NCBI RefSeq assembly: GCF_035083965.1
Contig: NC_089724.1
Location: forward strand, 33,484,722-33,548,721
Origin: Branchiostoma lanceolatum
Lineage: Eukaryota > Chordata > Leptocardii > Amphioxiformes > Branchiostomatidae
Reading direction: 5' to 3'
DNA: 64,000 bases
In this document: piece after piece, positions 40,901-64,000 of the stretch
How positions within the stretch are numbered: the stretch's first letter is position 1
How the letters are laid out: every line of letters begins with the position of its first letter
Program-made: the position numbers and the translations under genes
Notes under the pieces: model-generated
Told to the model about the DNA's origin: nothing
The model's input: the letters and a program-made list of their open reading frames with translations, nothing else
Databases searched by the model: none

Positions 40901-43900
40901 CACTATCTACATTCTTTTTATAGCAATAAATTACAAACTACACTTAGCCACACACCCATTAAAAGGCACTTTCCAGCTGAAGAGCGCACAATCGCATCAC
41001 CTACAATGTTGGGATGTGCACGTCTGGCCTCGCGCGCGGCTGCCAAACTTTGCCTGTTAATTTCTTCAGTTACAAACAAGCTTTCATCAGTTTGACGCTT
41101 GATATCAGCTGGACTAGCTAAAAGGGAATTTCCCACCGATATACACACACAGTCATGCAGCCATTCATTTTTTGGGGTACAGATTCTTTTAGGGTACCCA
41201 CTCGGAGTAATACAGGAATGAGACCTTAAGGATATTTGGTTTTTACCTATTTTCATGTTGTTTTTGCTCAGACAGATCGGTACAGCGTATGTTTCAGCAA
41301 CCACAGTGGCTGTAGCAGTGTCGGTGGGCCTGAACTCTCTCACATCGGTAAGCCTCCTACTAAAGTATGTACTGAGTCTACAATATATGTTGTATTTAGG
41401 AAAGCAAGAACATTCAGTAACAGCTGCAGTATAGTATTTTTGGCGACTCCTCAGAGGCGAGCTTAATGGTATAGTATCGTGTGCAAGTACAAATGTAGGT
41501 CATCCAGGCAGCTGGGGTCAAAGTCCAAAGCAGGAGGTTACATTCCAGCCCTTTGGGGCAAAGTCCACGACAGGAAGTTACATTCCAACCTGTTGCTAGT
41601 GTTGGAAATTCCTGACAGACAGACAGGCACACTTACAAAAACACACATACCACAACAGAACAATACATGCTGCCATAGACATCTTTTCTTTGGATATCCA
41701 GTATGAACAATACCAATTTACAGTGCCATAGACATATTACATTAACACATCACCCACAACAACAACCGTCGCCATGGCAATGTCTGTTGTTCCATTGCCA
41801 ATCTTATAGACAACAGAACACAGTGCTGTCTGTTCACTTTTTCTGCTTGCAAAAGTTCATGACTGTAAGTTTCTGACGCTGAATGGATGAAAAGTCAGGA
41901 ACAAATTTCTATTTTTATAAATCATTTAAAAGGAACCCAATAGATGATCATAGTACAAAATTGATTTCTCTTAAATTCTAGCAGTTATCAGAATGTTATA
42001 GACTGATTACGATATGAAATATATAATATGCAAATAGAATAAAACAAAACATTGAACTTGTTGGACCTTTCAAATGTTTGTTTAAGCTCATTGATATGCA
42101 TATGTGATCCCTCTGATTGGCTATGATTTTTATTGACTGCAGAAAGCCCCACAGTTGATGCGGCGTTGGGTGCCTTTTGCTGCAGTTGCTGCAGGAAACT
42201 TCGCCAATATACCCCTCATGAGACAAAGGTACTACTAACAATTATAAGATCAAAAAATTGTTTTGGTCTTGCAGTGAGATTTGATTAACCCTACTAAGTA
42301 TTCAGATTTAGAAATGTACTTTGCAAAGCTATGTCATTTAATGGTTGATGTGGGCTATAAAAAGTAAAATGTGTGGAATTTGTATAGCGAATTTTGGCTA
42401 AGACTTAACATTTGATTATTATTTATCACTTGTTTAAAGAAAGCTTGGATGTGAAAAATATAGAGTTATGTATACAATGACTTTTGTAGATTTATGATTT
42501 ATCTTAGACTATGTATATAAATCATGATTTGTTTTTTTGTTTGTTTGTTTGTTTGTATTGCATACCCGGTAAACCGCATCAAGGCGTAACACACCAGGTT
42601 TGTACTGAAGAGTACAAGCTGCATATCCGGACAGATTTATATGATCCACACACACCGGGAAGGAGCCCTATTCTTTTCGATAAGTGTGTTGGGTTCTTTA
42701 ACGTGCTTGAGGTGTGGGTCTCCTCAAACACGGGACCTCCATTTAACGTCCTAACCAAAGCCAGGTACTCATTTTCACCTGACGTGAGTAAAGTGGGGAA
42801 AGTCGTGTAAAGTGCCTTTTCCAAGGGCACAATGTCAACGGGACAAATCAGGGAACCCAGGATTCGAACACGGTATCTCTGGGTTCTGGGGCCAAACACC
42901 CTGCCACTACGCCACCGCGACGCCACTACGATTTGCTACTAACGTTGATTGGATGTTTTGATTCCCAATGTTTATTAATGTCCCCAGTATATAGATTTTG
43001 CTATTCTGATAGACTTTTTAAAAACTATATACTAGTAACCTATTGCTGTCTTTTTCTTTTCTAACAGGGAACTCATGAATGGCATTGTAGTAACTGATGG
43101 CAATGGAAATGAACTGGGAAAGTCCAAGGTAAGAGTTGTAGTGCTTCTCAATACGAAATTGAAATAAACTGAAACTGTTTTTCAAAAGATACTTTGATTA
43201 TTAACTGTTACAAACATATTTTATGAAATAAGGCTGAAGATGTACCTTAGATGAAATGTTGCATGTGTGTGTGTGTATTTCACCATAGTTACATCATTTG
43301 TGAGTCATTGATTATTAATAGTATTTAAATCATTGCTTAGAAAATTGTTACACTAACTCACAATACTTTTGTGGGTCATTTTCAAATTACTTTCTTTTAC
43401 TCTGTTACTTCAGAAAGCAGCAACAAAGGGAATTTTCCAAGTGTTTGTGTCCAGAGTGTCCATGGCTGCACCTGGCATGTGTGAGTACCATCTTTTTTAC
43501 TAATTTGTACATTAAAATGATACAGAAGTCGTATTCATTACTCATCCAGGAACAAAGTCTTTGTGGTGACTTCAAAATATAAGAAATATTATGTGTCACC
43601 TCATACATTTATCATACTTTATATATTTTACTCTACAAGTAAAAAGGTTTTTTGGCTAGTATTTTCCCCTCACAAATTATAAAATCATATTATTTTCATT
43701 TGTATTAAGTTCTCAGTATCTCCAATGTAAAGCTTTAGGTTTGTTCTTTCCAAAAATAGTACACCGAATAATCATGGATTTTATCTCAACATGAGATTGA
43801 AGGAATGTACATGTAGCAGAAGTTTAAAAATGTTGCTTGACAACCTTCTTCTGTTATGGTATGAATTAAGTCATTCTTGATTAGTAAAGGAAGGAATAAG

Positions 43901-45417
43901 GAATATTTCTTTAAACATGTTTTTTTTCTTTCTATTCAGTGTTCTGTCCTATCATTATGCAAAGGTTGGAGAGGTACACGTGGATGCAGGTATGTGTTCT
44001 AACTTCTAAGTAGCTGAAAATCATGTTTTTGATAATGTTCTTGCAAAACAGCCTTACAGACTTTAATGGATCGAAACAGTTTTTTTATTGTACTACTATT
44101 CCTTTCTATTAACTTGAAACGTAATGATTTACGTGTAGAAGCTAGCCACCAAAGAATTCATTGGCATTTTGAAAATGAATACAGTAATTGTAATGTGTTT
44201 GTATTTAAGCAGAGTTTTAGGAAAAAGTTGAAGGACAGTGGATTGAAGACAAAACATTATACATCTTTACAGTGCATATTATGGCTGTCAATTTATTGCT
44301 GTTACTTTACAGCTCTGTTTTCTTGATCTTTTGCCGATATTTTATAGCCTTTTGCCTGTACCAATACTGCTTCCTTTTTCCCCAAAACAGAGAATACAAT
44401 TCCTCCATGGCCCTATACAAGTCATGCTGGTTGGATGCTTGTGAGTACAATGGCTTTTTTAGAATCAAGCATTTAGAAAAGTATTTTGCAACAGAGAGTT
44501 GGGTAAAATTCATCAGATTCTGTATTTATAAGACCGTCAGAACGGGTGTTGTCTTTAATTTATTTGTTTTACTATTTACTGGACAGAACATCTTGACATG
44601 CGAAATCAAAATTACTGATTTTAAATGTAAAAAAAAATCTTTTATGTTATGTTTTCATCATCAATTTTTGTGTTCATTATACAATATATTTAAATGCCCA
44701 CATAACATTCATATCACATTCTGTAGATTGATGTTCCTTGCCAATTTGGTTGTCTATTTCAATTGTATTTTTTTAATTTGTGAATGATGTTTTAGATATT
44801 GAATTACTGATTCTTTCTTTGGTATCTAGGGTGATTAGGACATCCCCTAAACTCTGATTGGATTAAAGTTTAAACATTTCTTTTTTCAATTGTTTCAGCC
44901 TTGTGTTCATGGTGCCTACTGCCTGTGCCTTATTCCCACAAAGAGCGTAAGTTGCTTTCTGTATTTATGTCATTAACTGTATGAATGGATACAAACACAA
45001 TACAAGTTTCGATTGATTCTTTTACATGTCATATATTTACGCTTTAACTATCATGAAATATAGTCTGCATGTATTACATATATGATGATAGTACCTTTAT
45101 GGTACTGTTTTATTTATTATTTTTTGTATTGATTGTAATAACATAAGTCAGCCTGTCAGACAAAGCTAGTTTTGGCCTCCTTTAGAAAAACAAACAATGA
45201 TATTAGATGCAAATAGAATTATATAAGATGTAATGCACAGCATTATACATGTACTTTACATCTCTTCAAAGTCCAACAATTGGTATTAAAATTAAGTATG
45301 TTTTCTGCCCTCCACAGTTCCTTGTCTGTAGAGAAACTGGAGCCTGACCTAAGAGCGTCCATCCAGGAGAGATACGGAGACAAGATCAAGACTGTGTACT
45401 TCAACAAGGGGCTGTGA
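37935..45417 (+). CDS. SFXN2: Sideroflexin-2, mitochondrial inner-membrane carrier
   Basis: Eleven exons: 37935-38101, 39267-39437, 40508-40606, 41272-41347, 42143-42228, 43068-43128, 43414-43480, 43940-43989, 44391-44440, 44899-44946, 45318-45417 (975 nt, 324 residues; vertebrate sideroflexins are ~320). All junctions are GT-AG with matching phases. Family marks: [10 protein letters not shown] near the N-terminus, AFHPDSGE (from residue 79), [58 protein letters not shown], and the C-terminal [20 protein letters not shown], the PGGM string and [25 protein letters not shown] favour SFXN2 over SFXN1/3. Sideroflexins are multi-pass inner mitochondrial membrane proteins; SFXN1 transports serine, and SFXN2 is linked to iron and heme handling. 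Exons 8-10 are only 48-50 nt. No mitochondrial presequence is apparent, as usual for the family. The gene starts 1.6 kb from, and divergent to, ARL3. Confidence 0.96.
38121..38420 (+). repeat. SINE-like element with tRNA-like head
   Basis: GTGTCCCTGTGGTGTAGTGGTCTGC is an A-box-like head and CCCGGGTTCAAGCCCC a B-box-like string in SFXN2 intron 1. It begins ~20 bases after exon 1. Its body (CCAATGACTTTATAAAAATGG) differs from the 34468 family, so it is probably a separate SINE family. Confidence 0.6.
39450..39770 (-). repeat. SINE-like element in SFXN2 intron 2
   Basis: Begins GTTGTTGTTGTTGTTGG and contains GGCAGCAAGTTTCCTTGCTG, then ends near CAGAGCTCAACTGTGAGGC...CAGTTGAGCTC. It matches the minus-orientation copy at 4384-4560 and, in reverse, the copy at 11840-12345. 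Confidence 0.6.
40069..40420. mobile_element. Large hairpin element in SFXN2 intron 2, ~350 bp
   Basis: Arms start CACCCCGACCAATCGATCG and end CGATTGATCAGGGTG. The inner arms GATGTTTTCAGATTGACAAATTTTGGCACTTT-type sequence and its reverse complement meet around a T-rich centre near 40200. Only the right arm has a ~100-bp insertion (about 40290-40380). Confidence 0.8.
42531..42920 (-). repeat. tRNA-derived SINE, ~390 bp, minus orientation
   Basis: This is the reverse complement of the 34468-34865 element: it starts with GTTTGTTTGTTTGTATTGCATACCCGG and ends with GGATTCGAACACGG...GCCAAACACCCTGCCACTACGCCACC. The two copies lie in introns of ARL3 and SFXN2, about 8 kb apart, and could pair. Confidence 0.75.
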
Positions 45418-45720
45418 TGACGGCTAGTTTTCACTTGTCTCTCTGTCTCAAGAAAGCAATATGTTCATGGTTTGATACTGTATAAAATGTTGAAGGTGGT
45501 GTGTAAGATGGTGCGCATCTCTGTTTCCTTACCCTTGGTAAACATAGCTAGATAGTACTATAGCAGGGGGGCTTGTCCACTGGTAGATGTGTCCATCTAC
45601 ATCATTTCCCATATTTGCATTGTACTAAGCAGTGTAACATTTTTAAAGTCTTTGGTATTACTTGGTCTTCGATAAGTTAGAATTAAACCTGCTACCGACA
45701 GCATGCTAGGCAAGCACTAC

Positions 45721-45884
45721 TCTCCAAGCAGAGGAGGGGTTCCAGCTGGTTTTTGACATGTTTTTAGGCGTTTTTATCTGGCTTTCTACTTTGTCATTTT
45801 TTTGTCCCTTTGGGGTTTGTAGAGACCAAATAAATTACAAAGTAGAAAGCTTGACAAAAACGCCTAAAAATATGCTTGGAGAGT
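45721..45884. mobile_element. MITE with TCTCCAAGCAGA end, downstream of SFXN2
   Basis: TCTCCAAGCAGA at the left and TGCTTGGAGA at the right, with arms GTTTTTAGGCGTTTTTATCTGGCTTTCTACTTTGT and its near complement. It contains AATAAA at 45829-45834, which may serve SFXN2 (~410 bases after its stop). Confidence 0.8.
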
Positions 45885-46715
45885 AGGCAACCCCACTAGC
45901 CTATTGCAGCTGTTGTGTGCCATTAAACCTGTGAAAGAATTGAATGATGGTTAATGGATGACAAAGGCCAAAATGCATCAAAATAACACATAAATTGATA
46001 CGCTATTTTCATACTACATGTAACAGTAGTGGGTTGTTTTCAGGAAGGGGGTATCAAAAGTCCACTCATGGCTTCTCGAAAAAGATATCCAGTGCCTTTA
46101 TGTGTAGACTGTGCATTTTTACACTTGTGCTCTATGTTCTATTGGTCTCCTTATCCTAGGGACCTAGTAGTCGGGAGGGCCGCTTTAGAAGTGCAATCCT
46201 GTTAGGCATTACATAAGTGAGTACAAAATTATTGCCAAAGATTGTGACATATTTGTTGATATCAGAATTATCATCATTAGTTTTACTACAAGTACGTTGT
46301 TTTATTGAAAATGTTTCCATAGAGTGACTTACTCATCATGTAACAATTATGCCATGCAGATACAATTTTTACATACATGTACATGCACTACAGTTCGTAG
46401 CTGCTGGGCATTGGAATCAGCCCATGACACTGCCATGAATTCATGTTTGTCCCTCACTGTTGGGCTCTCTAACTGTAAAAGGATATTGAAACCATGCATT
46501 TTAAGACTGTAGACTTGTATGTACTTGTAAGAAGTAAGAATATCTCAGGTCATTTTGCGGACTGTTTTTCTTTAAACATGGTTTTGATTTCTCCCAGTTA
46601 TACATGATCGTATATGTATGGTGTCAAAGAGGATGAAATATTTGCAGGGCATCTTAAACCCATTCTATTTTCCACCATGTCCACTGTGAAGTAATTTTTA
46701 GGTTGTGTTTCCTAC

Positions 46716-47149
46716 TAGTGCTGCGTACCTAAACCCCGGACCTAAGCCAGACTGGGCCTAACGTTTAGATTCAAGTAGAAAAAAAAACTAAAAACTTGAT
46801 GTCTGGAAACAAGTCCGGACTTGAAATAACTTTGTCTCGCTTATACTCTCCTTTTTGTTTTAAACCATCTTAAACCTTTGTGAAATTTGCACTGGAAAAA
46901 TATGAAAACATTGCAGCTGTTTTTGTGTTTATAACTGAACTTTTGTGTTAAGTGCTCATTGCATGTAATTCCGCATATATAGTTTTCAAATTGCATGTAA
47001 AATATATGCCGATATGTTACATGTAGCAGAAAAAATATGTTTAGCACACATATGTCATGGATTCAGGTCCGGACTTATAAGTCCGTACCTAAACCTGAAC
47101 CTCTGGATCTAAATCCGAACATGAACATGGATTTAGGTACACAGCACTA
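46716..47149. mobile_element. hAT-type MITE, copy 1 (TAGTGCTGCGTACC ends)
   Basis: Ends TAGTGCTGCGTACCTAAA and TTTAGGTACACAGCACTA. Inner CCTAAACC/GGTTTAGG and GTCCGGACTT repeats. The flanks TTTCCTAC and TTTCCTTA agree at 6 of 8 positions, compatible with a decayed 8-bp target duplication. Confidence 0.75.
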
Positions 47150-47893
47150 TTTCCTTAATCCGGCTGATGAACCCTCCCTGGCTGACTGGACCCTCTCTGG
47201 CTAGCATACTACGATTTTCGCGCCCGGCGTGGATCTGCTTGGAGATTACTATTTCCTACCTTACTTTTTTCAACCACTTGACTCAAATATACTGTGAAAA
47301 TGTTGATGTTTGTGTTGAGAACTGTAGGTACGGTGATGGTAAACTTAACTGAATTAAACAAACGTCATTAAGCCGTAATTCTATGAATGGTGACTGCACA
47401 ACTTGTCGACGTTGTATAGTGTAGTATATTTGCAATTGGACATGGTGCTAAATCTAAGGTATTTTGGTATTTGGGCAATGGTATAAAGCCATCGGGAATT
47501 TGCTTCTGGGGTGTTGGAATTTTAAAGATATTTGTTAGAATATAAATGTTATGCTAAGTGAATAAAGTGGAAAATGATTTTGGTAAAAGTTACGTATTTG
47601 GATCTCATTATTATGAAACTTGTTTTCTCTGCTTTACTTTCAAATATTTCATTATTGTATCTGAGAGTTAAGCATATTTGAACATTTGATAGGCCATAAG
47701 ATATGAAATCGAAGATGCTTATTATCATTAGCAACATTTTATCAACTGAAATGAGTTGTTCTGTTGATAATCATTTTCTAGCAAGTAGGTAAGAGTATGC
47801 TTAATTTAAAAGTTAGAAATTATAACTCATTTACTCTAGGGAAGTTCGAGAAGACCCTTCTTATTAAGTTACGTTTGGAAGGGATCCTGACAA

Positions 47894-48344
47894 TAGTGCT
47901 GCGTACCGTTTCTGTGTACCGGTACTGTACCGTAAAAAATTATTCGGTACAGGTCCAAAATACCGGATCATGAAGGACCGGTACTGTACCAATACAAATT
48001 TACACCAAGTATGTGCTTATTTTGTGACTGATCTCATGCAACACCAAACGTGACCAAAGTGATACCTTGGAACAGAGTACCTATTATGCAACAGGTCATT
48101 CAGGCAGGCCGGGAGTTTTGATAGTATTAGGCATTTTAGGCCAAGGGAGTTTGGTGGAAGGAAACCTAGTTATATTTTTGAATGAAGATACTGACAAGTT
48201 GAAAACAGTTTATGTTTTTGTCATTGAAGAAGTTCAGAAAAACTCATGTTAATTTTTCAAGTTATTCAGGTACAGGTCCGGACCTGTACCTAAACCTCTG
48301 TACCGGTACCTGTACCTGATGTTACGTTTAGATACGCAGCACTA
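47894..48344. mobile_element. hAT-type MITE, copy 2, with intact 8-bp target duplication
   Basis: Ends TAGTGCTGCGTACC and GATACGCAGCACTA. The flanking CCTGACAA at 47886-47893 and 48345-48352 is a perfect 8-bp duplication, the hallmark of hAT transposition. Interior is full of GGTACCGGTAC/GTACCGGTACAG palindromes. A 61-codon open frame inside is not credible. Confidence 0.88.
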
Positions 48345-48659
48345 CCTGACAACACTTTGCGTTAAATTCAGGAGGGACACGTATACGTATTTCGCTAAAT
48401 TCAGGAAGCTGTGAATTACATTTTTAATGTGGTATTAAATAGCTTTACCTGCGGGAAATTATTGTATTTTGATAAGCCATACGAAAGAGGAATGGCATGC
48501 AGGCGCTCAAATTCAAAGTTGTCGCTTGCCAAATTTCTCTTCCCCAATTTCTTTCCAAAAATGCTCATAGAATCTGCCTTGATTACAGGTTTTCCCCAAC
48601 ATTTCATATACTAGAATGACATTATAAGTGCTATCCCTACAAATCTCTTTATGATAATT

Positions 48660-51120
48660 TGCTTTTAATTATTATGCAGTGGTATTTAAATCAGTGGCAA
48701 CACTGCAATTTCTGATGAAATCACAATGTATCTTGTATCGAAACTGAGAATATGACATTCCTGGTGCTGCAATTTTGTTTGGGTCATCTGCTACATACGC
48801 GAATGTGTTGCACGTCAGTGTGACCGCAAGGGAAATTGACACAAATGTGCAAATTTGGCTAAATTTCTTAGTGCGATTCGGCGCAGTCCACTGAGATACC
48901 TACTCTAGAATCATACAGGTGTCTGCATCAGCCCCTGTTACATTTACATGTGTACCCCTCCTTTGAGCCGAGATAAAAAATTTTTCATCAAGCCTCGTGC
49001 AAGTGCAATTTCCTTTTGGTGCATTTTCAATTATTGTACATTGGTTTTAATTCAGTGGCGACACAGAGATTTCTAAGAACATTGTATTATCTAAGAATCT
49101 TATAGGTGTCCGTCAAAAACAAATTACCACCTCAGTTGTGAGCCTACACATTTTGTGCATCAAGCTTTCAGGCCTCGTGCAAGTGTGTACTAAAATCTAA
49201 TGCACAGCGGGGAATAACTCTAACACCAACATAATCCAGAAATAGATGCCCCTGCGTAGTTGTGAGACAGTGGAAAATCTCATGGTGTTACGACCAATGA
49301 TTGCCGTCTGCAATGGTGTCGGATAATGTGTGATGATACACGTCCACTGTGGTTTGAATGGTCTAGACGGTCAGTAGCTGATAGAACGGTTAAAGTGTTG
49401 CCTTTGACATATATAGAGCTTTCACGTGGCATTATAATGCGTGTATTTACCGGACAGCACTAAATTACGAAAGGCTTTCGCAAATCGCCGCAGTTTTTTG
49501 CTTGAAATTTGCGCAAAATATCACAAAACGGCGAAACATCCCTTCATTAGTACAAATCTCTTTTTGGTAAATTTTCAATCATTGTACATTGGTTTTAAAT
49601 CAGTGGCGACTCTACGATTTCTAAGAACATTATATTATCTCAGAATCTTATAGGTGTCCGTCAAAAACAAATTACCACCTCAGGTTTGAGCCTACACATT
49701 TTGTGCATCAAGCTTCCAGGCCTCGTGCAAGTGTGTACTAAAATCTAATGTACAGCGGGGAATAACTCTAACACCAACATAATCCAGAAATAGATGCCCC
49801 TGCGTAGTTGTGAGACAGTGGAGAATCTCATGGTGTTACGGCCAATAATTGCCGTCTGCAGTGGTGTCGGGTATGGTGTGATGATGCATGTCCACTGTGG
49901 TCTGAATCGTCTAGACGGTCAGTAGCTTACGGAATGGTTTACCTGTTCCCTTCGATATATATAGAGCATTCTCACGTGGCATCAAAATACGAGTCGACGG
50001 TCGACGGTCTTCAGATCTAATGATCAGTTGACTGCGGCAAATTGTGACAGGTATTCCCAAAGTGGCGTAATTTTGTGTCAAGGATGGCATTTTTTGTTTT
50101 TTTTGGGGAGGGGTTCCAAAAACCTCGCTATTGGCAACGTTGGCAAAGTTGCCTAAACATGGCACAGACGGCGAAGCATCCTTAAACCACTGCAAACCTC
50201 TTGTTTTCTAAATGTTTCATTACCGTGTATTGTTTTTTATTTCCGGCTGTGCTGACTTAATTACTTTTTATGGTGACATCCTCCGGGTATCCCAAAACTG
50301 ATGCGAGCTTGGGAAATAAAAATTTGGCAGAAATAAAGTCGCCTTCATACATTTTGCTGCCTTTTATGCTTTCTGGCTTGTAGGGCAGCAACAGAAGATC
50401 GCCAGCTCCCTTTGGCAACCCTCTGGATAGTATTCCAATTATGGTTAAATCACCCCAGTTCTTTCGTCACAGTTCGTCGCTGTGTATTCTTCGGCCGGCA
50501 TTGTTTTCCGCATACCTTCTGGTGTCTGGTGTAGTGTGCTGTTTTTGTTCTGTCATTTGGGTCTTTCCTCAGCACGTGCCATATCCATTTCCACCTACCA
50601 CGAGGATGATGGTATTCATACACTCTTGTTAACAAATTGTGCAATTCCTTAATTGAAAGAGTCTTTGGCCAAAATATGCGGATGATTTTTCTTGGTATGC
50701 CAAATACCAAAAGAATCATATATATGCCCGTTAAAACAAATTACCACCGCAGCATGTCAGCTCCTTTGAGCCTACAAATTGTCTCCATGAAGCCTCCTGC
50801 AAGTGTGTGCTAAAATTAAATGCACATTGGGGATCGGAATGGCTATACATTGCGTACCACCAACATGACCAAGAAATAGATGTCCCCTGTGCACTTTTAA
50901 GATTATGGAAAATCTTTAGACACTGGTCTTATAACCAATACGACTTTTGATTGTCGTCTGCTGTGACGATGACTAAAAGATGTTTTGCTGTCAACTGTGC
51001 TTTACAACTTTCTAAAAGCTGTCTGAATGATTTGTTAAAATGTTTCGTCTGAAATATTAAGAGCATTTAGCTAGCTAGGGCTAGCTTCGTCGATACATAA
51101 TCCCATTGAGTATAGAGCGT
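48660..51120 (+). repeat. ~550-bp tandem repeat, two clear and two diverged copies
   Basis: ATTTTCAAT...ATTGTACATTGGTTTTAA at 49023 recurs at 49571, a 548-bp period. TATAGGTGTCCGTCAAAAAC recurs at 49101 and 49649. A diverged earlier copy covers about 48660-49022 (CATACAGGTGTCTGC, AAGCCTCGTGCAAGTG) and a later one about 50710-51120 (ACAAATTACCACCGC, AAGCCTCCTGCAAGTG). The last is separated by ~500 bp of other sequence. No function is evident. Confidence 0.8.
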
Positions 51121-51281
51121 TTAAAAACCGCTAATCTTCTTGCCCTCTGTTTAAAATTTAACAAAAACTATCAGGATCATAATCGTATTATACAGCATAA
51201 CTATATTGCAATCGATTTGAAGCCATTATATCATTTTATTAGAAAAATGTATTTGTCATTTTAAAAACACCGCATTATAAA

Positions 51282-51480
51282 TTGACTGACAACATTCATT
51301 TGTACAATCTGCTGTTTGCACGATGGATAACAAGGGGTGGAATGTTATATAGTGCAATCCTTTCAAAGCGACACAATTTTAATTGTAACCGTCATTTCAA
51401 AATACCGTATTACAAATTTGACTGACAACATTCATTTCCACAATCTGTTGCTTGCTTGATCAGTTGAGAATGTTACATAG
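51282..51480 (+). repeat. 136-bp direct repeat, two copies
   Basis: TTGACTGACAACATTCATTT at 51282 recurs at 51418, each followed by a CACAATCTG/TACAATCTG segment and GAATGTTA. Confidence 0.75.
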
Positions 51481-51672
51481 ATATTTACCTTAAAGAAAAA
51501 AATTACGACCAATTACATATTGTACGTCCATCTCAATGGCAGATATTCAGATCAGATATGTAGTTACAATACGATTACGATGGAGAAAAAGTTCTTTGTA
51601 AAAATAACAATCAACATTAGCTATGCAACAGATCATCACTTCACTGAATGTCGTGAAAACTGTACAAGTAAG

Positions 51673-51678
51673 TTTATT
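51673..51678 (-). terminator. Possible polyadenylation signal of the membrane-protein gene
   Basis: TTTATT on the plus strand is AATAAA on the minus strand, 508 bases after the stop codon at 52186. Confidence 0.4.
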
Positions 51679-51935
51679 TTGCAAACCACTGCCTGACATA
51701 ACAGGTTGAGAGATTTTACATGTCTTATTACTGAATAATAGTTCCGCATGAGTCTTCACTATAGTCAACAACAACAAAGAAACGTCTTATCTTACATGTA
51801 CATTAAGGCAGGAATAGATACAACCGATACCACTTTAAGGCGCCTAATATCATTCTTGGATGTACAAATGACCGGTCTATTAGCTTCAGTCATAGATCTT
51901 TCCACGGATTTCATTGCATGCAGGGAAACGCAAGG

Positions 51936-52075
51936 CACTATGGGTAGCGCAACATGCACTGCAACAACATCGTTGCCATGACTATGCGTATGCCGTACAT
52001 GCGCACTGTGTGCGGTCCGGTCTGTGTTGCCATGGTAACTATGTTGTTTGCCAAATGCGGTACCCATACTGCCCC
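51936..52075. mobile_element. Imperfect inverted repeat (MITE-like) containing a consensus X-box
   Basis: ACTATGGGTAGCGCAACATG and the reverse complement of CATGCGGTACCCATACT-like sequence (AGTATGGGTACCGCATTTGG) pair. AACAACATCGTTGCCATGAC pairs with GTTGCCATGGTAACTATGTTGTT. The 14-mer GTTGCCATGGTAAC (52026-52039) is a full-consensus RFX X-box, probably coming from the element. Confidence 0.6.
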
Positions 52076-52185
52076 GAGTCTCCCATCATGCAATGGGATC
52101 CGTGAAAAGGTCGAGATGCCCCTCCAGCTCCCAAGAAAACCGTTACTTTTTTAAAAAGCCGAACACGAACACAATACTTCTTTCA

Positions 52186-55100
52186 TTAATGTTTCTGTAG
52201 TTCTTTACAGAATAGGATACCTTTGATAACCATAGCGTACACGATTAGACTGATGAAGATCACCATGGTAACCATTGTCTTTGTCACGGGGTCGTGCTCT
52301 CCGGTTGACCTCACTTCCGCTTCCGTTAAATTCGCAGGCATGAGACCAGAAGTGCCGTTCAGATATGATGACGTCATATTTTGAGACATGTCTTGAATCT
52401 CGTCAGAATCTGTAATTCGAATAAAAATTAATTCATGAATATCTAGAAATACAGTCATTGTGGTTCTGTCTTTAAAAGACTTTGAGGCTTAAAGATGCAC
52501 ATCCTTATTCAGTATTGTATGTAAAATTAAGCTTTCAGATAATATATCTGTACACATTTATTTTAACTTCCATACTGGCGACCATGAAAAACGAAAAGTT
52601 TTACTTCTTCTGCATTGTGCAGCTGAACTTGTTTCTAGCACAAAACTTTTTCTACCTCTGTTTAAATATTCCACAATAAGATCAGCTTAGACATAAGATT
52701 AGTATGTAAGGTACGCATTGGAAGATCCATCAGACCCAGTGTCGGCGTCTTCTACTTCTACCGTAGCCGACACGAACAGGACACTATACCTCAGTGGCCC
52801 TATTTCATCTGCCACAAATGCACAGGGAGTAGAATTATGTGGAAGGTAAAATAGAACTTTATACTTATGGGACACGGTACTTCCTCATAAGATAAGGAAC
52901 CCCGTACACAATGAGCAGCACTGCTACATCTCGCAGCGTTTCCCAATCAGATCCCACGGTAGCTTACATCCTTAACGGTATAATTCAAAGTAACTTTAAT
53001 CCGTTTAGCTCTGGATGAACATACCCTGCTGCTAAAGAAGACAGGTCAGCTTTGATACCCTTCCCTAGAATCCATTTATACGGTCTTACGGTCGAACGTA
53101 GCAGGAGGTACATTTGCAGGACAATGAGAAGCACTTAGAGCTTTATGGAATGCTTTAGATTTGATTTTGACTTACGATTACAATTTACAGTGCACAGTTG
53201 TGTTTTGTTCAGTGCTGTACAAAGTCCCTGCATGTTACATTGTCCAATGTTCAGTTGTGCTTTTTGGCAAAATTTGCGTGCGCTAGCTATGTGCCTGTAA
53301 CGCGTATCATGGGCTTTATAATCAATGACTTTGTTTATGGTTTTGGTCATTTTCGAAGTACTTGCCATGCTATCAGCTCGTACCAGATTGCTTGTAACTA
53401 AAATCAAAGATTCATGACAATCGTTGGAATCTCTAAGAAATATCGTGTTAATGCTTGCAAGTATCCCATACTTTTAACGCGTATATACACAATTTTCATT
53501 CCAATACCGATTCATCAAATCTTGCGCAGTAATTGAAAAGCTGAATTATTTACCATGTTAAGATACACCTGCCATGGTTGGTACTTAAGCTTGATATATA
53601 ATTTAAACAACTAGATAGCTCCAACTCTCACCGAATACCCTAAGCTTACCACACTAGAAAGTATCAAAGAAAGTCTCAAGGAAAGTTAAGAAATTTTTGA
53701 GAAGACACCGCTTTCTTGATGCAGTGGTGTTATTGTATACTAGTCTTTTTGAATTGTGAGAGTATACGTCATAGATAGATAACTTTATTACGCGAAAATG
53801 GTAACATTTATAATGTATGGCAACTTGTACATACGTGACAATTAACTATTGCTAGTATTTAACCGTTTAAAAGAACTAATCTACTTTACGAAGAACAATA
53901 AAGGCTAACTATGCATACTAGAACAGTATGCTGAGAACAGTATGCTGCGTCATTGATGTATAGCTAGCATCGTATCGTTTTTGGATAGAGTTGTATATTA
54001 CAATTTGCCTTCATAGATATACGACTGGGGTATGATTGCAGAACGCAGACACCGTTTCTTAAGCCCCCTCCCCCCTCTCACTGGACCCGCAGCACGTTGG
54101 CGACGTCGCTGCGGCCGATCGACTGGACAAAGCACTCAACGAATTTCATCGACAAAAAAAAGAATGTTCTCAAGCTTTGTGTGTTTTGTTGTCTTTTTGG
54201 TCATACCTTTTAAATGATATTCCCATTATAAAGTCAAGGGTAACACAGATCCAGTTTAGGCCACAGCGGCGCCGCCAGCGTGCCGCGGGTCCAGTGAAAG
54301 GGGGGCTTTAGTCAAGTGAAATGACCTTTCTAAAAAAGAGCATATAACTTACCTAGTAGGAGCTCAAGTCTCCACAGAAGATCTTCGAACTGGTTCTGCT
54401 TCTCCGCCAGGCTGTTCAGGAGGTCCCGGATGTCGTGCCTGGAAGAACGGGGCCGCATAGCGTGGTCTTCTGCAGCGAGTGAGGAAAAAATAAGACGAAA
54501 CAAAAGTAAGCCATTCGTGGGTATAACATGGCAGCTATTGGGGTGGAGTGTTTGGAATCATTTCCATAGGGCGAAAGCCATAGGGCCATCGATGAGCCAA
54601 CGCTTATCATAGAGATCACTGTATAATATACACAAACGCTATCTCTGTTAACGCATTTGAATGTGGATTGTAATCCTTTTCATTGTATATTGTCCAGTAC
54701 GGTTGCCAGGGATAGCCATTTCTGATAGCCTTAAGTTAGTTAGGTAGTTCTGGCTGTATTTTGTTTTCTATACAGCCGAATACGTCGGATCAAATCAAAT
54801 ATCATTGTTTATTGAAAAACCGTATATCAAGACACCATTGGAAGGACTGTGAGAATAGTTTTAAAGAAATACTGTTTAAGACATCGAATATTAAACTATT
54901 AAAACACAATTTAGAGATCATTTGAAGACGTTGGAAGTCAATGAAAGGTTATTGGTAACATAGAAAAATCATTCAGAAATTGTTAGAAAAGTAAAACCGA
55001 GATCGTCTTGAGGTCATCACTGACTGAACGTTGAGAGGTTTTTGAAAGTTAAACTGTCTCTCTGTGGAATTCCCCATTCGAGTTTATGGTAATCATATAT

Positions 55101-58100
55101 CTTTGCAAAAATAGCCTACAGTGCTGAGCAAAACCCATAACAGATTTAAATGTCTGGTAATGATACTGTTTGTTTACATGCTGAGTTACATATATACATT
55201 GTTCTGCCAGCAATAGCAAGGCTTGCTACCCCCATTAGACTATAGCCATAGCTGTAGGGTTAGAAATGGCATAAACAACGTTAGCTGTTAAACAAAATTA
55301 CACAATATATGATCTCATGGTGAGTCTCATATATGATGCTTAGACGATTGAAATAGTAATATTTCAGACTCATCTTTAGTTACAAGATAACATGAATGCA
55401 TTTTATAGATAGCATTGTATCCTAATCCTACGACAAAGTCTACATAAGCGGGGTTCAAAGCGGCTTAAACCAAATCCATCTCCAGTTACAATTTTTTTTA
55501 GAGATAAGGTGCTTTCGTGTTGGTGATAGATTGTATAATTTTGGTCTCTCTGATAATTCGCTATAATGTGGGGGCCTTTAAAAGCAATATGTAGAATTTT
55601 TTAAGGCTCAGGCGATAATAGATCAAAAAGCTTTTTGTTTTTATCTGTTGTATCCTACATCTAATCCTATAAGACGCTTAAGCCATGTCTGTCTCCAGTT
55701 TCATAGATAAGGTTTATTTGTGCTGGTGATTGATTGTAAAATGTCATCCTTTTTGATAATTCCATCGCAGCACTAAGTTTTACTATGGGAGAATATCTTT
55801 ACAAAAAATCAATACGAGATAATTACATCTGCAGGCGATGACATAAGCTTTGCTTTTTAATCCGTTATAATCTTAGTCATCAATTATGGTACATTAGGGA
55901 AAAGTAATTCTGCCGTCTACGTGTTTGCTGTGATCCTCACCATCAATTATACTACATGCATGTTTGAGCGCCAATTGCGTCATCTATATCTATACATAGC
56001 GTAAGCACACACTCTTACATATGCAACGGCAGCTATTATATATCCGCGGGTGCCATACGACTTCCACAAAAAGAAAATTGGAAGAATAAAGAAAATAGAT
56101 AGAGAATTTTGGAAGCGAAAGACATCTCTACTGTAGCTGTATCTATATCAGTACGTACAACGTTAGTCGGTTAACCACCCTTCGGCCCAATACACCAGCT
56201 TTAAATTTGCAGACACGCGGCGCGACAGCAGATGGTTTTATTACACTGAACTACCTGCCGAACCTATATCCTTTGCATATCTAGCTGTAAACGTTGTTAA
56301 AATCTAATTATGATATGTATAGAGCGTCTTTTTGACGTGGATATATATGGATGTATCCAGGCCTCTGCAACACATTTATTAATGTGACAATCTTATATAT
56401 AGGGAAACTGCGACTGAATTATTAGAGCTGATCATGACATTCTCATGTATATACAATAATATAGAAAAGCCATTATACATCAAAACAACAATGATCTTCT
56501 TTTGTTAGTAACATTCCCCACATTCAAATTCCTTAAAAGCACCACAAAGATTTCATGACACGATGAAACACCATAGACATTTACATATTCAGGACAACAT
56601 ATTCATTTGCGCCTTTTATTCTTTCGTATGGGATCACCGATAGACCCAACGTCAAGACACGTCCCTACCCTACATTAACATTTTCAGGATAAAAACTTTC
56701 ATTTACGCATTTTTTTAAAAATGAGATCATCGATCAACACAACATCAAGACATCAAGCACGTTACTACATCAAGAAGAAGACATATTCACTGGGTATTCG
56801 TAAGACTGATGTTGTAGCTTAACCTTGGCTTTATCAGTCCCTCGCATGCGTGGATTTCCGTCGGGTTGCATCATTGTGAGTACCTTAATGTCTGCGTGTG
56901 AGAGTAATACAGGCGAAAAAACGCAGCGATCAAATGCAGCCTACCATGATGATGTGCTGAGCGACCGCTGGGTGACCGAAATTAGATTTGTGTCCCTTGA
57001 TTTTATAGTTAGAATATGATGCACGGTGTAAACGTATGATTTAAAAGACGACAAAATCCTTTAAAACGTTAGAAAGATTTTGTTTCTCATTCCATTCCAG
57101 CGGTGGCCTCTTCGCTGCAACCTGAAATTTTATTTGGAGCTAAATCAATTCTAAAGCTAACAACGACCCTTTCGACGCTTTATGTTCTTTTTTTCAGTAA
57201 TAATTCATCTTTTCCCTGATATTCTAATCACGAATTCGAAGTAAAATGCACAAATCAAAGTTAGGTCGCTGCGAGATTGTAGCATGATTGCCGTCTAGTT
57301 GATTCGGGCCTCCATTGAGTGATCCGTCAAATGTCTGGTCGCTCTGCCCTCGCAGCTTCTTGCAGAAATGATGTGATAATAAGACGACGTCTTTAGAAGC
57401 ACGTTAAGCATCGATTCGTCAAGTAAAACTCACTGCATTAGTGGGAATGCTATAAAACAAGATCAGTGGCGCCAGGTATAAAGGGTATGAATGATATCTT
57501 TACGTTCCCATGCTTGGGAAATGTAAGCCTGCTGAAAATATTGCATTCAGTCGTACATTTGTACCAGAGTTATGCTAGAAAAGAAAAAAAAAGATCGTTT
57601 CTCCGGCTTTAAATCTATTGTAAAGTGGAACTCGTCGCAGCTAAGTATATATCTATATCTATATAAAAATTATACATACATATTGAAATATAAATATATA
57701 GATAGCGTTGTTCAAAGCTGTATGATGGGGATTTTTCTACACAATATATATATATATTCATATCTATGTATGTTGGAAAATTCCTATCTTGCAGCTTTAA
57801 ACAACGCGTACAGCAAGATGTGCAAAGCTTAGTTATGATATGTTATTCAGTGTAATACAACCAACTACTACCGCACCGCGTGCCTAAGAAGCTGGTGTGT
57901 TACGCCAAAAGGGCGGTTATACCGGCTATATACTAGATACAAATGCAGATTTAAATCGTTGACCATTAATTTTAAGCTGTTAGCTAGGCAGGTTGTAAAG
58001 GTCAGACCGTTAAATCTATTATCATAAACTCATGTGGCGACCATACCTGAAGGGCATTCCATTAATGGTGACTGCAACTTCCATCCTAATATATCACCGC

Positions 58101-61100
58101 AAAAAAAACATTCGCTTCCCCAAAGACATCCATGGCTTTGCGAAATTTTTAACAGGCTTATAGAATAAGATAAGGTTATAACCGACATCAAGAAATATTT
58201 CGACTATCTAGAAATTAAAGCCTTTGTTAAAGTGGGCTTAGCTCCTAGAAGAAACTATATAAAACTAGAGTTCCACGAACACATTATCTTCGCCAAATAA
58301 TCAAGGCTTATCATGGAGAGTGATTAATATTTACGTGCTTATCACCCCCTGCAAATTTGATCATGCACCATACCATTTGGAAGTTATGATGGGGCGAATG
58401 AGTCCAGTCTAGATATGGTTAAAAATCATTTGGTGGTACAGGACTAGTATATGTGTAGAGTGTACTGATATATGTTATAACTGGTAATGAAAAAATATGA
58501 GTATGTTGATATTATATGGGCCACAAAGGTTCGATATTGCAGTGTTGTAAGTTGAAAGTGGTGATGAAATAGTACAGTCAATATATATGAATAGAATAAA
58601 TCTGGCTGGTGGTTGACGTGTTTTTAGGTGTTTTTGTCCTGCTGGGCTTTCTATTTTGTCCCAATTTCGTTATGTCGCCAACCGTGTTGAACAAAAATGC
58701 CTAAACTGAACGCGTTAAACCAACAGGACCCACACCTCTGCTTGGAGAATTGTTATTTATTTGACCTACATGTACGTTTATGCAAGGCCATCTGTTTACA
58801 TGACCTGACACTGTCCCATTGAAATGCAGTAGGTTAACAAACTTTCCTTACTAATTATGCAAATTAGCTCCTGATTTGCATAATTAGTCATTGATAATGT
58901 AAATCACCATCTGAGCTCTTTACATACCAAACATGACGACAATCTGTCGACCCCTTCTCAAGTTATTCATGTCCGAATGTCAAAACAAAAACACCCACTG
59001 CAGTTCTAAACAAGCCGCTAGGGAGCCAAAATTTACAGAACTTTCTTTCTGTGGCATGAACTATCTACCACGCAAAAATCATGACCATAGCACTTTCAGA
59101 AAATATGCCCCTAAGTTTTGAAGCTCCGCTGCAGTACCTTAGGTACCCGCTAGAAGGCCCATTATCGAACTTGACCTTCCTTTCTGTAAACCCTACCCAT
59201 CCACTAAATATCATACGGATCCATCAACAGGTTCTCGAGTTATGCTGGCGACATACAAATACACATCCACACAAAGCCCGCTGCAGTACCAACGGAAAAT
59301 ACCAGGGGAACCATTTTTGAACTTGACCCCCGTTTTCACAACATCTTCACACCTGCAAAAAATCATGAAGATCCATCAACGTTTCCGTCACTTTTTTTGC
59401 CTACATACAAACACAAAAAAATGTAAAGTCTGCTGCAGTACTGTTGAAAAACGCAAGGTGAACCATTTTCGAACTTAAGTTTCCTTTGCACAACCACTAC
59501 ACACCTACCAAAAATCATAAAGATTCATTGAAGCTTTCTTGAGTTATGCTCCTGACATACATTCAGACCCACCCAACAGATTTTTCAACCGAAAACATAA
59601 TCTTCTCCGAGTACAAGTACTCGGCGAAGATAATTAAAAGAATGCCGTGTAAGCTTGAGCCACAGTCCATTGAAATGTAAAGCAAGGACACCAACAAGGC
59701 TGCCAGAACCTGCCTGCTTCATTGATATAAGGACAGTCAATGAAAACACTGCATACGACAAAAATTACACCTTGTTCTCTTTCAGTCGCGACAGAATGCA
59801 TTTGGCGCTCGGATTTGGATGGGCTGACTTTCACTCAGCTCAGCCGGGAGCCGAATTAATTAAAGTAGGAGGTTAATAAGTAATAGATTTTTGGCGCCTT
59901 TTCCCTTGATGTGTTAGAATATATTGACCTGCATGAATGAGCTTTTGGACTCCTATATACACACAATACATCACTTGTTTAGCACAGCTTCAAAGCACGT
60001 GCCTTTTAGACTACCACACAAATTCACTTAAAATCGTGTAATTTCATGAATACAATGTATATTATTATATAACATTAAAAGGGAAAAAAAAAAGGCCTTC
60101 TTGATAATATTCCAAACACCTCGATATCTGAAATGTGTAGACGTTGGGGATCACTGATGCTTCATCAGATAAGATCTTGTGAAATTCACAATTAAAAAAA
60201 AAATGGTGGTCTTAGGGTAACCGTCGGAACTAAGTTGACGTGAGCACATATCATTGCTTGAAAATGAAAATTACAAAAAAGATTTCATCGTCTCCTCTCT
60301 TTGTTAAAAATACATAATGGTCGTAGGGTTCCCGTAGAAAGTATGGGAGCTATTGTTAGCACAAGGTATTGTCAAAAACTGATAAATTGTTATCCAATCG
60401 TGCCTGTCATGTAGATGCTTCCAAGAAGCTAGAGATCAAATGACGTTACGTATACGTAGAAAACAAGCAATCCTTCGGGCACCAGCGAAGACAGAAATCC
60501 ACTCAAACCCTTAGAAGCATGACGTAGTCAACCAGGGGACAAAATAGATGGCTTGTTACAACTTATTCCATCAAGATAAATAACTAGATGACTTGTCATA
60601 ACTTATTCCAGGAAGGGAACCAATTACATAGCTTGATACAATCCATTCCATCAAGGGGACAAATTAGATGGCTTGTTACAAGCTATCATGGACTCTGTAG
60701 GATTCATACGGCTGAATTTAGATGGCAACGAGGGCGCGCTTCATTTGATTTGCTCCGACGTCCCAAGATGATTCAACAAGCTAACAGATCTAGAAGGTGC
60801 CCTGAAGGAGACAAAAATTTATAACAAGATGTGTTATATTACTAGCTCACTGTTGGATCCACCTGGGCAATCTTGCTGAGCGAAGGATTAGAATATTTGC
60901 CAAATAACAGTAACTCAAGCAACTTGATATGATCTTTGAATTTGTTTCGAAGATTGTTTTTTTTTTTGCTCCATTTTTCATACGATTTATGTCGCGGTCA
61001 TACTCGTCGTAAGCCGCCGTTCGATGTATAATTTTCAAGCAGGCTGTAGCAGAACCAACAGCCGACAAGGAACTAAGACAGCCTTTTCTGTAACAAGACT

Positions 61101-63767
61101 GCCGAGTTTTGTATGGCAGATGACATGCAGGAATGCCACAAGAAGTTTCGATCGTATGGAGATCATCCAACAAATAAAACCTGACCCTTAGTCTCGCAAA
61201 AATCTTAAATTTGTCGTGGTAAAATTCTGACTCAATATTTCATTTTCAAATTGTTCCTGGGATTTTAACATCTAGCTAATGATATCCCCCAAATCATTAG
61301 CAAGGGAAAATGAAACGTACGTTTTGCAACTTAGAATTCTAGTACACACACACATTAAACATCTAATGCCTTTGACTGGTCCATATAAAAGAAAATCGGT
61401 CAGTTGCAACAATAATTTCATTAAAATGCAATATCTTAAGATATGATCTAAAGCAAAATCTGTTGCTCATATATCTTAGCCATCTCCAATCGTTCAACCT
61501 TTTAGCGAAAGTGCTGTGTTCATCGCAAGCATTAACAATTCACTTGAAATAGAAAACCTCTTTAATGTGGATTGAGTGAACTCTTAAGAGAGGCAATGAG
61601 ATAAAAGCCATCAGACTCGTTCAGTGTAATGGTCGTTTAGTGCAATATATTAACCCGCTACTATCGCGGAGCGTGCCGGCGAAGCTGATATGTTATTACG
61701 CTGAATGGCTAAGGGAAGTTATACCGACTATACCGATACAGATTCAGACAAACATTGCACAAGAGAATCGAATATATGAGACAGGTTTACGTTCTAGTGC
61801 GCAATGGCGTAAAACAGGTTAATGGTTAGCCCAAGATACGATCTACAAAGGAAATAGTGCAGGGCTTTGAAATAAATCAAGTCAAAAGTTAACTTGCTTA
61901 TTTTGGTAAGGACTAGGAAAAATGTTGTGTTTCCGGTTACCCGACCGATAGACCCTTTTTTAAAACCTGCCGACCATAGCCTTTTTGGTGGCATCGAACG
62001 CTGATAATGAGTGATGAAAACGTTGTAAAATCGTTTCCAACATGTTTTCCCTATTTTTGTTTCTTGCAAAGTTGTGCTTTCACATTGTATATTTGTATAA
62101 TTAAAATATGATGTTTGAAAATGCCAGTGCCTTGATGCCTGACAGTTTAACATTGCTTAAACATGTACAGCGCTTACAGGATCACTTGGATCAGCCAAAT
62201 AGAAAATAAATAAAAAACGAAAAGAACAGTAACAACAGCAAGAGAATTCCAACCAACACCACACAGCACACTCTTTCAGGGCCGTTATCGGAGACACAAA
62301 AGTAATTTCCCTAGGCCTAAGTTCAAAAGGATTAAGACGTAGACATGACACTGTTTCATGTGTTGAAATTGCAGATCATTCACTTGAGCCTATGAGATTT
62401 GTTTGGTAAGCCCAAGCGAATCAATTGACGTACACACAGCCCCGTTTGATGTGCTAAAATCGAAGGATCTTTCCACATAAGCCCTTTGGAAGCGATTGCA
62501 TCGTTTGATACACCATAGCCCGATAGATGTCGTTAAATGTCTCTTTTTTAATATTTCAAGATGCAACACACGTTAGGAATGAATGAAGTTATCTATTGCA
62601 AATCCTTGCCCAGCTAAGTACAGGTCATAACAAAAACAAAACATACATACGCGTGTTGGTAAACGTAACGTAGTCTAGCATATAAAATCGGCTTCTCCTA
62701 GCTTAACGGTAAAAATAGGATTGTAGGATTGTATGGGTTCAGTGATAGTCATTTTGTAATAAAGCATGAGGAATACCAATTTTTCAGTGCTACTTATGTC
62801 CAAACTGAGAGAATATAAACGAATTAATAGGACATTTCTACAATTAAAATACAATCTACAATGAAGTTAGCTTAATATCTTCTACCGTGTTTGAGGTATA
62901 AAATTCTATGCTCTAGTTTGTAACGTTAAGGCTAGTAATTCCTCTGGCTTCCCAATCAAAAGACCGTTACATAAAACATGAGAGCAACAACGGTTAAACT
63001 TAGAGGTCTTTAAATGCAGCATCAAAGAACCACGAGGTATGCATACTTCAATTATCCAGGAGTTCAAAACAGTCTTGAAAAGTCCTCAATAACACCTTTT
63101 TTGTCTCGATAACACTGTATTTTTGCCTCATTGCAATAACACTATTTTTCTATCTTCACGTGGCGGTCTTAGGATATCAGACGGACTTACCGGAATTTGT
63201 GAATATTAATTTTTTAGTATTCATTCATTTCGATCTAAAAAGATTTTTTCTCTACCATGTAACACTATTACACAACAAATCTCTTTAGAATGTAATTTGG
63301 ATATCTCATTATAAACGACAACGTAGTCTTATAATCTATGGATTTTGATAATCCACACTGTTTACAGTCTAATCCTCATCGTACGATGACAAAAAAAAAT
63401 CACCAAACAGATGTATTACCATACTGTATATCGAATTAGTTTTAGATCTCAATTCAATTCTTTTGTGGAGGTTTTAAATAATCTAATTCAGGAATAGTTT
63501 AGACATACGGTCCTAAATAAAATGTAAGAGAATAAACCTACCTGGACTGTTGTCATCTGTTCTGTTGATACCGATGTTTAGCTGCTCTTCTAATCGGTCC
63601 ATCAGTCCTTCAAACTGCACTTGTTTGTTATCCAGGGATTGTAGAAGGCTATCGATGCTCGCAGTCCTTTTTGGGATTCGACCACCGTTTGCTTCTCCCA
63701 CAACGTCCGTCAATAAGACGATAACACAAACGGCAACGAACCGCAAGGTGGAATATTGCATTGACAT
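52186..63767 (-). CDS. Unrecognised single-pass membrane protein with two duplicated helical segments
   Basis: Three exons on the minus strand: 63767-63542, 54469-54353, 52409-52186 (567 nt, 188 residues, stop TAA). All introns are phase 1 with GTAGGT/GTAAGT donors and CTGCAG/TTACAG acceptors. Residues 1-24 look like a signal peptide (FVAVCVIVLLTDVVGEA). Segments 38-63 (IDSLLQSLDNKQVQFEGLMD..) and 89-114 (IRDLLNSLAEKQNQFEDLLW..) match at roughly half their positions and share SL-x2-KQ-x-QFE-x-L, with heptad-like leucines. A linker with N-glycosylation sequons (NMT 125, NGT 132, NLT 141; NRT at 68 in the first half) leads to a membrane helix at about 160-182 and the short tail KELQKH. This predicts a type I plasma-membrane or secretory-pathway protein with helical ectodomain. 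I do not recognise a family and assign no function. Exon 2 is symmetric (1-1), so it can be skipped or duplicated in frame. Intron 1 is 9.1 kb. The joint reading of exons separated this far is inference. Confidence 0.7.
54060..54310. mobile_element. MITE-like element with GC-rich inverted ends, next to exon 2
   Basis: TAAGCCCCCTCCCCCCTCTC...CACTGGACCCGCAGCACGTTGG pairs with GCGTGCCGCGGGTCCAGTGAAAGGGGGGCTTTA. It lies in intron 2 of the unrecognised gene, 43 bases downstream of its exon 2 donor. Confidence 0.8.
55420..55830 (+). repeat. ~203-bp diverged direct repeat, two copies
   Basis: GATAAGGTGCTTTCGTGTTGG at 55503 and GATAAGGTTTATTTGTGCTGG at 55706, each preceded by AATCCTA and CTCCAGTT and followed by TGATAATTC. 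Confidence 0.65.
58266..59632 (-). mobile_element. ~1.4-kb non-autonomous repeat element, copy 2 (minus orientation)
   Basis: Starts ACTAGAGTTCCACGAAC...CTTCGCCAAA and ends CTCGGCGAAGATAAT, the reverse of the 13345-14462 element. It includes ATTATGCAAATTAGCTC and, from 58930 on, about four 130-190 bp units each with CTGCAGTAC, GAACTTGA/GAACTTAA, ATCATgaAGATCCATCAA-like and GAGTTATGCT strings. No transposase is evident. Confidence 0.65.
58601..58748. mobile_element. Truncated MITE of the TCTCCAAGCAGA family, nested in the 1.4-kb element
   Basis: TGGCTGGTGGTTGACGTGTTTTTAGG to CTCTGCTTGGAGA matches the interior and right end of the element at 45721-45884; the left terminal repeat is missing. 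Confidence 0.6.
60545..60690 (+). repeat. 40-bp minisatellite, four copies
   Basis: TAGATGGCTTGTTACAACTT-type units start at 60545, 60585, 60625 and 60665, exactly 40 bp apart. Confidence 0.9.
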
Positions 63768-64000
63768 GCTCTTTAGTGTCCGCTAGATTGACCACCGCAG
63801 TTTATGTAGATATATACATCACAGGCAAATTAAAGTACAGAAACGAGCTGTACATGTCCGTGCCAATGTTTGATCGTCTAGATCAAGCCCAATCCTGGTC
63901 GGTAAGCCGTTCATATCACAAGCTTCTCAAGCTGTGCTGTTTGGAAGTGGTGTTACGCCGAAGCATTTCCGTACACGTATCCAATGCCTCTCGAAGCTTC

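Follow-up and report, generated by a model that had tools for sequence, protein, structure and literature searches.

Two small exons on the minus strand of Branchiostoma lanceolatum contig NC_089724.1, which we call exons A and B, are genuine and form part of a single gene. Each encodes one copy of an amphipathic helix of about 26 residues, and the two copies are an old internal duplication that has been maintained by selection on the protein. Together with a third exon, exon C, they would encode a 188-residue type I membrane glycoprotein. The best explanation we can offer for such a protein, and one that we hold to be moderately probable, is that it works through tethered coiled-coil association, either with itself or with a partner. 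The gene model is precise and testable. All coordinates given below are those of the window, that is, the whole 64,000-nucleotide stretch of DNA that was analyzed.

Gene model and coding evidence

A sequence-only reading of this region had proposed three exons, and its coordinates, phase 1 joins, and 188-residue product could all be read in the DNA, together with GT-AG splice sites (Table 1). Exons A, B, and C measure 226, 117, and 224 nt, respectively, and the reading frame passes through both junctions in phase 1. Exon A carries the signal peptide, a basic linker, helix repeat 1, and the N-glycosylation site N68. A hydrophobic N-terminal signal and a single hydrophobic segment near the C-terminus are likewise present, and the N-x-S/T sites are four in number (N68, N125, N132, and N141). 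Signal cleavage, which is placed by the -3,-1 rule, likely follows VVG.

Table 1. Features of the gene and its predicted product, in window coordinates
Feature	Position	Strand	Basis and remarks
Exon A (coding part)	63542..63767	-	ATG at 63767, donor GTAGGT, phase 1
Predicted signal peptide, residues 1-24	63696..63767	-	hydropathy; cut probably after VVG
Dibasic KR before repeat 1 (GRIPKR-T)	63666..63671	-	possible proprotein-convertase site; putative function
Helix repeat 1, residues 38-63	63579..63656	-	repeat identity, codon pattern, heptads, AlphaFold2 helix
Exon B	54353..54469	-	117 nt, symmetric phase 1-1, donor GTAAGT; basic linker and helix repeat 2
RPRSSR before repeat 2 (RPRSSR-H)	54438..54455	-	minimal furin-type R-x-x-R with a further upstream Arg; putative function
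Helix repeat 2, residues 89-114	54354..54431	-	repeat identity, codon pattern, heptads, AlphaFold2 helix
Exon C	52186..52409	-	N125, N132, N141; membrane helix, short basic tail, stop TAA at 52186
Membrane helix core, residues 159-176 (may reach 181)	52225..52278	-	Kyte-Doolittle maximum 2.5
Possible polyadenylation signal AATAAA	51673..51678	-	about 510 nt past the stop; consensus match only

Splice sites were scored with matrices that are our own approximations of the metazoan consensus, with no training on this genome. The donor of exon A scores 10.7, and exon B is the top of the 14 phase 1-1 internal candidates in 63541-52200 (two of which overlap exon C), with a score of 19.7 versus 10.5 for the next. 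The table used to score codons was derived from other exons in the window (ARL3, SFXN, ST8Sia, and RING), amounting to 2,019 bases in 17 pieces. Among 770 open frames, a yardstick that takes in exons of the training type as well as the exons of the studied gene where these have at least 40 codons, exon B falls at the 99.9th percentile, exon C at the 94th, and exon A at the 93rd. The scores of exons A (-0.005) and C (0.026) lie at the low end of those of the known exons in the window; among the left-out known exon pieces, 3 of 17 score below exon A and 6 of 17 below exon C. The window holds only 233 bases 5' of the ATG, and the model covers the 5' side of the gene to that extent; additional untranslated exons may lie farther out.

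Two further coding possibilities were considered and rejected. The first is a fourth exon at 53135-53473 (minus strand). This open frame encodes five Cys and an N-K-T site, its GTAAGT donor has the fitting phase, and, if coding, it would add a Cys-rich module and give a much altered protein. It was judged to be noncoding by its acceptor (1.95), its donor (5.2), and its codon score (-0.46, 11th percentile), and it has no Pfam match. The second is an isoform whose translation would begin at exon B. The frame stays open upstream of this exon and encodes hydrophobic residues, but it lacks a Met ahead of exon B, and its codon score is low (-0.32, 40th percentile).

The helix repeat is maintained by selection on the protein

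The segments encoded by exons A and B are identical at 14 of 23 residues in an ungapped alignment, and none of 20,000 shuffles of exon B reached its score against exon A. The repeat is therefore beyond chance. The similarity extends further than the shared motif first described, SL-x2-KQ-x-QFE-x-L: the full common stretch reads I-x2-LL-x-SL-x2-KQ-x-QFE-x-L-x2-RLE, with identity at 15 of 26 residues.

At the DNA level, the repeats match at 37 of 69 bases, distributed over codon positions 1, 2, and 3 as 13, 16, and 8 of 23. Differing codons are used at 10 of the 14 identical residues (for example, Ser is TCC in one copy and AGC in the other). When 32 differences were placed at random in the DNA, a mean of 5.6 residues was retained, and retention of 14 occurred in none of 50,000 trials. 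Silent sites are much more diverged between the repeats than replacement sites, with dN of 0.54 and dS of 27 (saturated) by NG86 and dN of 0.47 and dS of 1.22 by LWL85. Since the codons have drifted and the residues have been retained, translation and selection must have acted on both frames ever since the segment was duplicated long ago. This selection at the protein level places both exons in a single gene, a conclusion for which no transcript is needed.

When both segments were searched against the whole window by tblastn, the repeats found each other (E 0.001), and there was no third copy, the next matches having E values of 0.36 and 0.53. The pair was not listed by a DNA-level repeat search of 51900-64000, which is consistent with its DNA divergence.

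Helix geometry and structure prediction

The positions that are identical between the repeats concentrate on one helix face (permutation p 0.0005), and the hydrophobic moment has its maximum at 100 degrees in each repeat (p 0.02 each). With the first Ile placed at heptad position d, 7 of 8 a/d positions are hydrophobic in each repeat (shuffle p about 0.0025 each). In this register, the repeats agree at every d (4/4) and c (3/3) position, at most a (3/4) and g (3/4) positions, at half of the e positions (2/4), and at no b (0/3) or f (0/4) position; the exposed residues, at b and f, have thus diverged, and those on the side that packs have been retained. Each helix presents a broad hydrophobic stripe, with Ile/Leu/Phe/Leu at one core position and Leu/Gln/Met-or-Leu/Leu at the other. 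In the preferred register, both repeats have Gln at an a position, as well as Lys at g and Glu at e, which lie five residues apart and could pair between chains. The alternative register, with the first Ile at a, is nearly as good (6/8 and 7/8 a/d positions hydrophobic), so that there is more than one possibility for both the register and the number of strands. Both repeats also have Leu at g, which broadens the stripe and would suit a bundle of three or more helices as well as a dimer. Over their 26 residues, the repeats carry net charges of -4 and -2, and this acidic character argues against a membrane-lytic helix.

AlphaFold2, given single exons without relatives, predicts a helix at residues 35-70 for exon A, with a modest mean pLDDT of 64.6, and a helix at residues 9-37 of exon B, with a mean pLDDT of 86.7 and values of 93-98 in the last three blocks. 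The coiled-coil and structure predictions that had been suggested as a check thus agree with the proposal, in that the heptad pattern fits and a helix is predicted for each segment. The earlier idea of a helical ectodomain that may self-associate or bind a partner is supported by codon selection, helix face, heptads, and structure prediction, the binding itself being something that we infer.

Basic sites ahead of the helices

The main rival to coiled-coil association is a precursor with a membrane anchor that would be cleaved at the basic site ahead of each helix. Convertases would cut at PKR/T and RPRSSR/H, and each helix would be freed or exposed as a ligand. In some multi-peptide hormone precursors, related peptides are encoded by separate exons, and the secretin/PTH class includes PACAP-type genes with one exon per peptide; the studied protein resembles these precursors in that its helical segments are related, come from different exons, and each follow a basic site. 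Its only dibasic pair and its only R-x-x-R each closely precede a helix, and an Arg 8 residues ahead of the helix is common to both repeats. It differs from the secretin/PTH class in its membrane anchor and in the absence of a basic site past helix 2, so that helix 2 would remain tethered. The segments are also acidic, and profiles of secretin/PTH/CRF/calcitonin-type hormones are not among the Pfam matches listed (E up to 10, although the HMMER filters drop most of those above about 0.1). Because there is no site past helix 2 and no hormone profile among those matches, we give this reading less weight and consider it unlikely.

A related arrangement would be a membrane-tethered twin ligand, in which two related helical ligands are separable at the furin-type site between them. 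The first helix would be released or held as a heterodimer, and the second would act in cell-cell contact. We regard this arrangement as distinctly improbable.

Comparison with known families

In a search of Pfam-A, the whole protein gave three matches, all below the curated cut-offs, namely, FIN1 (E 0.008, 16.2 bits versus a cut-off of 25), Nsp1_C (E 0.039, 14.2 bits versus 24.1), and HEPN (E 0.053, 14.1 bits versus 22). NCBIfam gave zero matches. The only PDB match, to a piece of cGMP-dependent protein kinase (3nmd, E 0.84), is not significant, and a profile built from the two repeats gave six chance-level matches in the PDB (best E 0.47). The likeness to FIN1, Nsp1_C, HEPN, and 3nmd lies in short helix-like stretches, and we read all four matches as compositional likeness without kinship. 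Pattern searches found 2 stretches in viral contigs and 34 in prokaryote genomes, none of which was confirmed by tblastn; the absence of such relatives is expected of an animal gene. GOLD or EMP24 families, which would have pointed to p24/TMED cargo receptors, are not among the Pfam matches listed, the window has no Rfam match at the gathering threshold, and none of five peptide strings taken from the repeat occurs in the literature searched. This negative result on kinship covers the Pfam, NCBIfam, PDB, viral, and prokaryote sets, and we make no claim of newness to animal biology.

RAMPs have a glycosylated helical ectodomain and a very short tail, as the studied protein would have, and Pfam includes a RAMP model. 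RAMPs are small single-pass proteins, again like the studied protein, and carry four conserved cysteines (PMC6283891); here, in contrast, there are no cysteines in residues 25-158, and the ectodomain has a doubled helix. Since its ectodomain is devoid of cysteines, the protein does not qualify as a RAMP by this mark. More broadly, it might be a receptor or channel accessory subunit of the RAMP or KCNE type, a short single-pass partner that changes the traffic or specificity of a larger protein. Its size, the glycosylation sites of its ectodomain, its one membrane helix, and its very short tail would suit such a subunit, but the lack of the four cysteines of RAMPs (PMC6283891) and the absence of the RAMP and KCNE families from the Pfam matches listed lead us to think it quite unlikely.

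Exon C and membrane topology

Exon C is the weakest link of the model, and we infer its membership from phase, strand, spacing, acceptor, and membrane helix. Its frame has the best codon score of its three frames. Among 57 minus-strand phase 1 terminal candidates in the window (acceptor of at least 5 and at least 40 codons), four have a hydropathy peak of at least 2.0, and exon C alone pairs such a peak with at least 73 open codons, by thresholds that were derived from exon C and are partly circular. Alternatively, exons A and B may form one gene and exon C belong to another gene or be a chance frame, in which case the protein would be secreted or have a different 3' end. The acceptor of exon C is only moderate (5.8), and 3 of the 4 other terminal candidates in 45,000-54,353 have slightly higher ones (6.2 to 6.6). 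Yet the hydropathy peaks of these four candidates are 0.8 to 1.5 versus 2.5 for exon C, which also has its codon score percentile and its unique combination of open length and hydropathy in its favor. We therefore see a separate origin of exon C as improbable.

The type I topology proposed in the sequence-only reading is supported by hydropathy, provided that exon C is part of the gene. The components of a single-pass type I coiled-coil protein (signal peptide, heptad helix, and membrane helix) are all found by computation, the membrane helix by way of exon C. The length of the tail, given as 6 residues, needs to be relaxed: the 19 consecutive residues of highest hydropathy (163-181) include K177, so that the tail may have either 6 or about 12 residues. 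No signaling motifs were recognized in this short tail.

That all three exons arose as open frames by chance and there is no gene is very improbable, for although the window has 98 stop-to-stop frames of at least 80 residues, many of them taken as noncoding, the splice sites at exons A and B are strong, and we know of no noncoding cause for silent divergence with protein identity in stretches 9 kb apart.

Genomic surroundings

The introns of the gene contain other sequence features. Between exons B and C, 47-nt inverted arms (54070-54116 and 54259-54305), 87% complementary and 142 nt apart, form a MITE-like element, of which blastn finds no second copy in the window. In the long first intron, a repeat with 40-bp spacing occurs at 60534-60686 in three copies that have diverged. 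Beyond exon C, an open frame at 50450-50740 (minus strand) has no Pfam match but is similar to the C-terminal part of a LINE reverse transcriptase.

At lower coordinates than the studied gene, ARL3 (30200-33569, minus strand) and a sideroflexin gene (37956-45414, plus strand) lie head to head; the limits of both are the ends of tblastn pieces, and the 3' piece of ARL3 is weak. Human ARL3 and SFXN2 adjoin, and the pair may represent an old linkage. Two ST8Sia-like exons lie on the plus strand at 14772-15170 and 25781-26080 (PDB 5bo6, E 1.3e-13; PF00777), and within the first there is an in-frame tandem repeat of 21 bp (15013-15061). By eye, the open frames at 7457-7957 and 20029-20634 are mutually similar; they have no Pfam match and may be related stem exons. 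Tandem duplication of ST8Sia genes has been reported in the amphioxus (Branchiostoma floridae) lineage (PMC2564942), in keeping with the lancelet origin of the window. Finally, a 126-bp tandem repeat in four copies (1282-1784) begins inside a RING finger frame (1005-1319, PF13920) and covers its stop codon.

A model for the protein and its implications

Under the coiled-coil association that we favor, removal of the signal would leave an ectodomain with two amphipathic helices of about 26 residues derived from the old internal duplication. Past the helices, a stalk bearing three sites for N-glycosylation would lead to a single membrane helix and a short tail. The helices of one or several chains would bundle mutually or with the helix of a partner, either on the cell surface or within the secretory pathway, and the role might be that of an adhesion protein or of an accessory (chaperone or receptor-partner) subunit. 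Overall, the protein appears to be a small membrane protein of an ordinary sort and not the mark of a novel system.

Two exons of one gene here vouch for each other without transcripts, through a protein that was retained and codons that drifted. Should vertebrate relatives exist, a hidden family of ectodomains would gain a name through this gene; if the gene is confined to one lineage, its product would be one more small surface protein.
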